DNA from: Planctomycetia bacterium
GTDB taxonomy: Bacteria; Planctomycetota; Planctomycetia; Gemmatales; HRBIN36
Assembly: GCA_016795155.1 (NCBI GenBank)
Contig: JAEUIE010000032.1
Span: 62,001 to 126,000 of the forward strand
Reading direction: 5' to 3'
DNA: 64,000 nucleotides
Below the pieces are notes generated by a model. The model had not been told where the DNA came from, searched no databases, and saw nothing but the letters and a program-made list of their open reading frames with translations. The first letter of the stretch is position 1; each line of letters begins with the position of its first letter. Shown in pieces: positions 26,934 through 60,350 of the stretch. The translations under genes and the position numbers were made by a program.

Positions 26934-27791
26934 ATGAAGATTGGCTACAACACCAACGGCTTTGCTCACCATCGATTAACCGATGCCTTGCATATTCTGG
27001 GTGATATCGGTTATCAATCCGTTGCGATCACACTTGACTATCATTCGCTGAATCCATTTGAGGCAGATCCGAGGCCGCAACTGGATGAAGTGAGGGCGAT
27101 TCTGGAATCGTACCAGATGGCTTGTGTCATTGAGACCGGCGCCAGGTATCTGCTTGATCCCTATCGCAAACATCAGCCGACACTGCTGGATGCCGAGCCA
27201 GGTGAACGATCCAGGCGCATCGGTATGTTGCTGCGATCCATCGAATATGCTCATCATCTGGGTGCAGACGCTGTCAGTTTCTGGTCGGGCTCTCCGAACG
27301 ATAAAGCACCGGCTGAAGTCCATTGGCAACGCATGGTGGATAGTTGCAGGTGGCTATGTGATCATGCAGAAAAGCGCAAAGTCCGGTTGGCTTTTGAGCC
27401 TGAACCGGGCATGCTCATTGCCTCAACCAACGATTTTGGCAAATTGCATCGACAATTGAATCATCCCTATTTTGGTTTAACCCTCGACCTGGGACATGTG
27501 CATTGCCTGGGTGAAGGTCCTATTCCACCGATTATTCGTCGCTGGAGCCATGTGCTCTGGAACATTCATGTCGAAGACATGCGACAGGGAGAACATCAAC
27601 ATCTGATGTTCGGCGAAGGGGAAATGGAGTTCGACTCGATTGCACAGGCACTTCACGAAGTGGGGTACGAAGGTGGTCTGCATGTGGAATTGAGTCGTCA
27701 TAGCTATGACGCTGTCAATGTCGCTGCATCGGCGTTACACTACCTGCAGGAACATGGATTTGCTTCTCCTGCCAGTCGCTGCTTGGCCTAG
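26934..27791 (+). CDS. Xylose-isomerase-like TIM barrel protein
   Basis: This 285-residue protein is a member of the sugar-phosphate isomerase/epimerase (AP endonuclease 2 / xylose-isomerase-like) family. Metal-site type residues are present: ETGARYLLDP, LAFEPEPGMLIAS, LTLDLGHVHCLGEG, NIHVEDMRQGEHQHLMFGEG and LHVELSRHSYDA. Unlike the paralogue-type barrel at 59385, it therefore looks able to bind a divalent metal. The ATG at 26934 is preferred over an in-frame TTG 9 bases upstream. It follows leuB by 31 bases. The substrate is unknown. Confidence 0.83.
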   Translation: MKIGYNTNGFAHHRLTDALHILGDIGYQSVAITLDYHSLNPFEADPRPQLDEVRAILESYQMACVIETGARYLLDPYRKHQPTLLDAEPGERSRRIGMLLRSIEYAHHLGADAVSFWSGSPNDKAPAEVHWQRMVDSCRWLCDHAEKRKVRLAFEPEPGMLIASTNDFGKLHRQLNHPYFGLTLDLGHVHCLGEGPIPPIIRRWSHVLWNIHVEDMRQGEHQHLMFGEGEMEFDSIAQALHEVGYEGGLHVELSRHSYDAVNVAASALHYLQEHGFASPASRCLA

Positions 27792-57039: not shown

Positions 57040-57414
57040 TTAATCATCGTCGTCATCCAGATCATCGTCATCCTCATCTTCATCTTCGTCGTCCTCATCG
57101 TCTTCGTCGTCGAGGTCGTCGTCGAATTCTTCATCGTCAAAGTCTTCGTCGTCGAGGTCTTCATCATCGAAGTCGTCATCGAGGTCTTCGAGATCATCAT
57201 CATCGAGGTCTTCGAAGTCGTCATCCTCTTCATCGTCTTCGTCTTCATCGTCTTCGTCTTCTTCGTCTTCATCCTCTTCTTCGTCATCATCATCCTGCTT
57301 GCGGCGACCGGCATAGGTACCAGGAGCTGAACCGCCCGGAGCCAATGTACCAGCTTCGCCAAGAGGCCAAGCCAGAGTGCGACGAACTTGATCCAGAACC
57401 AACGCCATAAGCAT
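57040..57414 (-). CDS. Hyperacidic low-complexity protein
   Basis: This 124-residue protein has a normal, slightly basic N-terminal 38 residues (VLDQVRRTLAWPLGEAG...YAGRRKQ). About 85 residues made almost only of Asp and Glu follow, with Phe or Leu every four to seven positions. GAGGA lies about 8 bases before ATG 57412-57414. The competing frame would be rich in Met, Lys and Thr and is not credible as a protein. The tail would carry a very high negative charge. Possible roles include metal, histone-like-protein or RNA-polymerase binding; none is shown. Confidence 0.7.
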   Translation of the reverse strand: MLMALVLDQVRRTLAWPLGEAGTLAPGGSAPGTYAGRRKQDDDDEEEDEDEEDEDDEDEDDEEDDDFEDLDDDDLEDLDDDFDDEDLDDEDFDDEEFDDDLDDEDDEDDEDEDEDDDDLDDDDD

Positions 57415-59384: not shown

Positions 59385-60350
59385 ATGCCACGCAAGCTGG
59401 CGTTATTTACAGGCCCCTGGTCAGACATTCCGCTGGAAGAACTGGTGAGCAAAGCCCATGAATGGGGTTACCAGGAACTCGACCTGGCATGCTGGGGCGA
59501 ACACCTGGCTGTTCAGAAAGCACTCTCCGAACCTGATTATGGTAGGTCCATTCTTGAATTACTTGCAGAACACAATTTGAAACTGAATGCCATCAGTCAG
59601 CATGCTGTTGGCCAAGCTGTTGCCGATCAATTGAGCCATTATCATTCAACTACGTTGCCGGAGTGGGTTTGGGGAGATGGTGTGCATGAAGCAGTGCATG
59701 CCCGTGCAGCACAGGAAATGATTGATACCGCCAAAGTCGCACAACAGCTGGGCGTCAATCTGGTACATGCTGCTACGGGGTCACCATTTTCTCTTCAACA
59801 TCAATGGCTTGGCTATGGTTCACCAGAAGTTACTGTACAGTGCTGGAAGATATTTACCGACAGATGGAAACCCATTCTCACCGAATTTGAAAAGATGAAC
59901 ATCATGCTGGCCTGTGAAGTCGGCCCGGCACAAACTGCTTTTGATATCTACTCCACGCAGGAAACCATACAGGCACTGGAAGGTCAACTTTCCTATTCGC
60001 TGGCTATTTCTCCTGCTGCGTTGCATTGGCATGGAGTCGATCCGATCGAATATCTACGACAGTTCAGTGATCGCATCAGCCAGATTCTGGTACAGGATGT
60101 TGCAGTGACTTTGAATGGTCGTTCCAGTCTGCTAGGCTCGCTGCTGCCCGATGGCGATTACCGCCGGGGCTGGAACCATCGTGCTCCAGGGTATGGCAAT
60201 CTCGATTGGCCATCACTGTTGCGAACGCTGCATCAGATTCATTATGAAGGCCCGGTGACGGTATGCATCAAGGATGCAGATATTAATAAAGACCACGCTG
60301 CAGCGGAAGCAGTGCATTTCATCCGGCGACTCGATTATGAACCGGCTTAA
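59385..60350 (+). CDS. Xylose-isomerase-like TIM barrel, metal site degenerate
   Basis: ATG 59385 with GAGGA 6 bases upstream gives 321 residues. The overall pattern matches sugar-phosphate isomerase/epimerase proteins (LALFTGPWSDIPLEEL, WGYQELDLACWGEHL, QDVAVTLNGRS, HRAPGYGNLDWPSLL). Compared with the usual motifs, EVHP reads EVGP, FDPSH reads ISPAA, the HxHxKD segment reads ILVQD, and the late Glu region reads CIKDAD. Most metal ligands are therefore lost. It is probably a non-catalytic paralogue or has a new role. Confidence 0.8.
   Translation: MPRKLALFTGPWSDIPLEELVSKAHEWGYQELDLACWGEHLAVQKALSEPDYGRSILELLAEHNLKLNAISQHAVGQAVADQLSHYHSTTLPEWVWGDGVHEAVHARAAQEMIDTAKVAQQLGVNLVHAATGSPFSLQHQWLGYGSPEVTVQCWKIFTDRWKPILTEFEKMNIMLACEVGPAQTAFDIYSTQETIQALEGQLSYSLAISPAALHWHGVDPIEYLRQFSDRISQILVQDVAVTLNGRSSLLGSLLPDGDYRRGWNHRAPGYGNLDWPSLLRTLHQIHYEGPVTVCIKDADINKDHAAAEAVHFIRRLDYEPA

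Follow-up and report, generated by a model that had tools for sequence, protein, structure and literature searches.

The 3-keto-glycoside β-eliminases AtOGE and PuCGE are TIM-barrel enzymes with a Mn site on β-strands 5, 6, 7 and 8 and a catalytic His (PMC10628242). In AtOGE, the catalytic His lies two residues after the β5 ligand, and among single Ala changes H134A is dead and H189A has <0.1% activity (PMC10628242). The solved structures nearest to the protein considered here are 2zds, which is SCO6571 of Streptomyces coelicolor (E 3.5e-73), and next 8ro4, the 2-hydroxy-3-keto-glucal hydratase AtHYD (E 1.4e-10; only 21% identical). The 2zds entry is labelled as a putative DNA-binding protein; our literature search found no paper on the function of SCO6571, one match concerning a two-component system.

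Here, we describe a xylose-isomerase-like barrel gene from a planctomycete of the family HRBIN36 (order Gemmatales). The window is the whole stretch of 64,000 nucleotides that was analyzed, and its features are collected in Table 1. The gene starts with ATG a few bp downstream of an AGGA-like site. Its product matches PF01261 with 87.6 bits (cut-off 31.1) over profile positions 2-248 of 249. In NCBIfam, the window protein has only a weak match, to IolO (25.9 vs. a cut-off of 300), and for the intact and degenerate barrels scanned the nearest family is myo-inosose-2 dehydratase (best 59.5 bits vs. a cut-off of 290). These scores lie far below the cut-offs and hence no reaction is assigned, while analogy with the relatives suggests keto-sugar dehydration, hydration or epimerisation as the chemistry of the intact family. 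A literature search, with subscription journals mostly outside its reach, found no publication on the window barrel gene, none on xylose isomerase-like TIM barrel pseudoenzymes and none on 3-keto-glucal hydratases.

Table 1. Features of the barrel locus and an intact paralogue, with positions in the window.
Feature	Position	Strand	Basis
Xylose-isomerase-like TIM-barrel protein, 321 aa, dismantled active site, predicted pseudoenzyme	59385..60350	+	Pfam, alignment, model
Codon of E178, sole predicted metal ligand retained, β5	59916..59918	+	Alignment, model
Codon of G180; predicted catalytic His in 85/88 orthologues of the sister family	59922..59924	+	Alignment, AtOGE/PuCGE comparison
Codon of S209, replaces ligand Asp, β6	60009..60011	+	Alignment
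Codon of L235, replaces ligand His (second His of HxHxKD), β7	60087..60089	+	Alignment
Codon of C294, replaces late ligand Glu/Asp, β8	60264..60266	+	Alignment
Multi-pass membrane protein, 549 aa, directly upstream, candidate partner, short loop after first membrane segment	57671..59320	+	Hydrophobic stretches, linkage
L005, intact PF01261 paralogue inside the window	about 27003-27752		Alignment

Compared with 2zds and the orthologues, the window protein has EVGP for EVHP (59916-59927), ISPAA for FDPSH, QILVQD for HVHxKD and TVCI for SVEW, and the strand order in the model places these motifs at the ends of β5, 6, 7 and 8. SCO6571/AtHYD-like enzymes are expected to carry four metal ligands (E, D, H and E/D) on these strands. 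The window protein keeps E178 and has S for D209, L for H235 and C for E294; two residues after the β5 ligand, G replaces H180. The absence of three of the four predicted ligands (D209, H235 and E294) and of the predicted catalytic His is well supported by the alignment and agrees with the first-pass annotation, which had described a TIM barrel short of most metal ligands. FDPSH to ISPAA, HxHxKD to ILVQD and the lost late Glu were all confirmed by direct reading of the window sequence. The annotation was also right that EVHP is replaced by EVGP, but not in counting the lost His as a metal ligand: the expected ligand is the Glu, which is kept, and the His is predicted to be catalytic because it matches the catalytic His of AtOGE and PuCGE (PMC10628242). 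The sites of these two proteins, both active enzymes unlike the window protein as we read it, match E178/D209/H235/E294 and H180, mapped by strand order and motif and not by superposition; the inactivating H134A and H189A changes of AtOGE affect His residues that match in this mapping.

SCO6571 is homologous to the window protein over the full length (rmsd 1.2 to 1.4 Å). It retains E, D and the late E as well as the His of EVH, and carries Asp at the second-His position, whereas the window protein retains the Glu alone. Since 2zds has Asp there, the second-His ligand is not absolute. AtHYD, a named enzyme, aligns with ExHP, DPSH, FHVKD and EWE, the set lost from the window protein. The AlphaFold2 model (pLDDT 94.7, pTM 0.92) is an α/β barrel as in solved PF01261 members, although it is biased toward the family fold because the input alignment consisted mostly of intact orthologues. 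Foldseek aligns it with 2zds at TM 0.97 and with 8ro4 at TM 0.90 (Z 46.5 and 39.4 in a second comparison). Judged from its residues, the window protein is probably inactive.

Orthologue searches gave matches in 61/61 relatives at E 1e-20, in 7/7 members of the window's family and in 132/392 genomes of the phylum sample. Within the order, a profile of degenerate members matches 97/102 genomes, two of which (G474 and G479) hold a weak paralogue-type match only. The orthologues of the remaining 95 were all read, as 96 rows (the G394 gene is split over two contigs). In all seven family genomes, the catalytic His and two or more ligands are missing. In the order E178/D209/H235/E294/H180, the window protein reads ESLCG, G395 EDYKQ, G396 HDFLS, G392 HDVLS, G393 and G397 LDRAQ, and G394 ECTGR. 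The sister family is intact at all five positions in 83/88 genes (late position E or D), so the window gene is an orthologue of an enzyme family whose catalytic residues were lost in its own family. Outside the order, each of the 49 rows read, a part of the phylum-sample matches, is EDHEH (48 distinct; one gene was entered as two loci).

The sister family contains further variants. G439 (FDYRQ) and G453 (LDHNQ) have lost several ligands, separately from the window's family, and G462 is intact as far as its contig reaches. In G423 (L082, G423:C270), the β6 ligand Asp is His and the other four positions are intact. G471 (L177, G471:C14:5700-6900) has four intact ligands, Gln for the catalytic His and Ala at position 207, a possible first step of active-site loss. 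Two trivial explanations of the altered window gene were rejected. A private pseudogene or sequencing error does not apply because the loss is common to 7/7 family genomes. Duplication, with this copy altered and another one intact, does not apply either, as the 61 relatives have one match each at E 1e-20, except G394 with its two contig ends.

Loss is concentrated at the catalytic columns. The comparison used 69 columns with a conservation of 95% or more among the 83 intact rows (E or D accepted at the late Glu) and nine degenerate rows, namely G439 and eight from the family, with G453 left out. Only 10/43 catalytic cells are kept vs. 414/521 cells at the other conserved columns; for single degenerate rows, Fisher p ranges from 0.0013 to 0.21. 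The loss at catalytic columns is not chance, and the retained cells together with the intact modelled fold fit the earlier impression that the fold-defining sequence is preserved. Further columns frequently lost in degenerate rows are H73, F130, W136 and their neighbours, which probably line the pocket. Position 207, two before the β6 Asp, is A or V wherever H180 is missing (10/10 readable rows) and T, L or N wherever it is present (85/85 rows), an association that shared descent may explain in part.

The conserved remainder raises the question of whether the barrel is still catalytic, either metal-free or via a relocated site made of residues kept in all rows. All readable degenerate rows retain H40, Q183, D238, R266 and D297, conservation is also good in the GDPRRGW...PGxG loop, and A207 is common to the family and missing from the 83 intact rows. 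However, H40 and the other retained residues are retained in intact orthologues as well. Moreover, catalytic and pocket columns diverge between the family genera with no new shared set: five family lineages have a mean of 4.0 distinct residues at catalytic sites vs. 2.5 over all columns (P 0.005), and such differences between lineages speak against a shared new active site. We thus regard continued catalysis as unlikely.

The family genes are maintained as open frames. None of the seven, from five genera, has a stop or frameshift, the G394 gene being broken by the contig end only. Intact orthologues combined with frameshifts in close relatives, the pattern of decay named in the first-pass annotation, are therefore not what we observe; intact orthologues lie outside the family, and all seven family genomes share replaced sites. 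Pairwise codon models gave dN/dS of 0.07 for each of the within-genus pairs G392/G396 and G393/G397 (0.086 and 0.069 in the other alignment), and these values, about 0.07 to 0.09, are rough because dS is 2.4 to 2.8, near saturation. Neutrality is rejected for both pairs (likelihood-ratio statistics 208 and 216), as expected under purifying selection. Eight intact pairs were tried, of which six gave 0.018 to 0.081 and two were saturated. Four neighbouring genes gave 0.032 to 0.058 for G392/G396 and three gave 0.021 to 0.056 for G393/G397, with 0.30 for one short ORF.

A slowly decaying relic under relaxed selection and heading for loss would account for some of these numbers. In the all-column tree, branches of the family measure 0.7 to 1.6 changes per column, a length that indicates relaxed constraint, the family dN/dS exceeds five of the six estimable intact pairs, and 7/102 genomes of the order have no orthologue, some of them being fragmentary assemblies. 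Yet dN/dS is far below 1, the frames are open throughout the family and the loss is concentrated at catalytic positions, and we consider such a relic quite improbable. A non-catalytic role under selection, as the first-pass annotation had proposed, is instead suggested by the family-wide loss, the open frames, the low dN/dS and the modelled fold.

The active site was probably lost once in the family, in its ancestor. A tree without motif columns separates the seven family genes from the others by a branch with SH-aLRT 91 (not starred) and places G439 and G453 elsewhere, which requires three changes. In the all-column tree, G392 and G396 stand apart from the rest of the family with weak support. 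Both trees are uncertain because long branches meet.

The window genome has 27 PF01261 matches, and a search for related loci in genome contigs returned only one distant locus. Among seven other PF01261 proteins aligned, a comparison suggested by the earlier reading, L133, L003, L004, L005 and L002 keep E, D, H and the late E, the ligand set that the window protein has mostly lost; L006 and L129 are unclear or altered. L129 (G000:C3:142000-143600) has Asp for the β5 Glu and no late Glu and is possibly a second altered barrel. The window protein could also assist another, active PF01261 protein of the cell as its non-catalytic stabiliser or subunit, in the way that PDX1.2 assists PDX1 enzymes in plants, with no involvement of the membrane protein. 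An intact relative that scores 171 bits against the family profile (G000:C13) indeed occurs in the same genome, and the other six family genomes have second matches of similar length. Such matches explain nothing special because they also occur beside intact orthologues elsewhere in the order, and we think this arrangement very unlikely.

The gene directly upstream encodes a multi-pass membrane protein. Pfam gives nothing above cut-off for it, only sub-threshold DUF matches, and its model (pLDDT 80.2) resembles no solved structure at E ≤0.001. It is present in 96/102 genomes of the order; weaker matches are widespread, in 182/198 genomes of the class sample. Among the 94 genomes that have both, the membrane-protein gene immediately precedes the barrel gene on the same strand in 71; in the family it does so in 5/7 genomes. 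The non-adjacent cases are on different contigs (21 genomes) or separated by 6.7 kb (G393) or 2.1 Mb (G440). As this linkage holds with intact orthologues too, it is not specific to the pseudoenzyme. The membrane protein evolves faster than its neighbours (dN/dS 0.136 for G392/G396). The loop that follows its first membrane segment, up to the RGPNP motif, was read in 15 genomes with an intact barrel (72 to 227 residues), in G439 (63), G453 (112) and G471 (146), and in five family members, where it has only 30 or 31 residues. In G393, an extended low-complexity stretch takes its place, and the two pieces from G397 are similar. The loop change represents one lineage and may be unrelated to the loss in the barrel. 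G397 has its membrane partner on a different contig, and a Csm6-like HEPN ORF (L074:3376-5097) precedes its barrel gene at a short distance. In the window, the second part of a minus-strand ORF at 57040-57414 is nearly pure Asp/Glu, i.e., acidic low complexity.

Taken together, we favor with moderate confidence a pseudoenzyme that was retained for a binding or scaffold role after catalysis was lost in an ancestor of the family, with the upstream membrane protein as the likeliest partner. The starting point would be an order-wide metal-dependent sugar TIM-barrel enzyme of the keto-sugar dehydratase, hydratase or epimerase type. Catalysis was probably lost in the ancestor of the window's family, and the folded protein and its binding would then have been kept under purifying selection, such that the barrel most likely acts without catalysis, as a subunit for binding or scaffolding. 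The membrane protein is the likeliest partner because the two genes are linked across the order whether the barrel is intact or not, and this linkage suggests that the two proteins might interact physically. A broader scenario is possible but doubtful: within one order, a linked pair of barrel and membrane protein would have become non-enzymatic at least three times, once family-wide. The barrel would then persist in a membrane complex as a subunit for scaffolding or sensing, G471 (only the His lost, with T207A) would be at the first step, and the partner loop would have been trimmed in the family.

The locus points to an uncharacterised two-gene unit of barrel and membrane protein in this order, and such genes should not be annotated as sugar isomerases. 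Intact, half-lost and fully lost versions coexist and thereby provide a natural series on the roles of a barrel enzyme besides catalysis. A pseudoenzyme is frequently a spare paralogue that accompanies an active copy. Here, the loss is family-wide, and two further lineages of the order show it again. PDX1.2 is likewise a TIM barrel. As a pseudoenzyme of plant vitamin B6 synthesis, it provides a precedent for a non-catalytic version retained by a clade (PMC6829848). It belongs to another family, however, and is accompanied by active copies, whereas the only orthologue in the window genome is the one that lost its active site.
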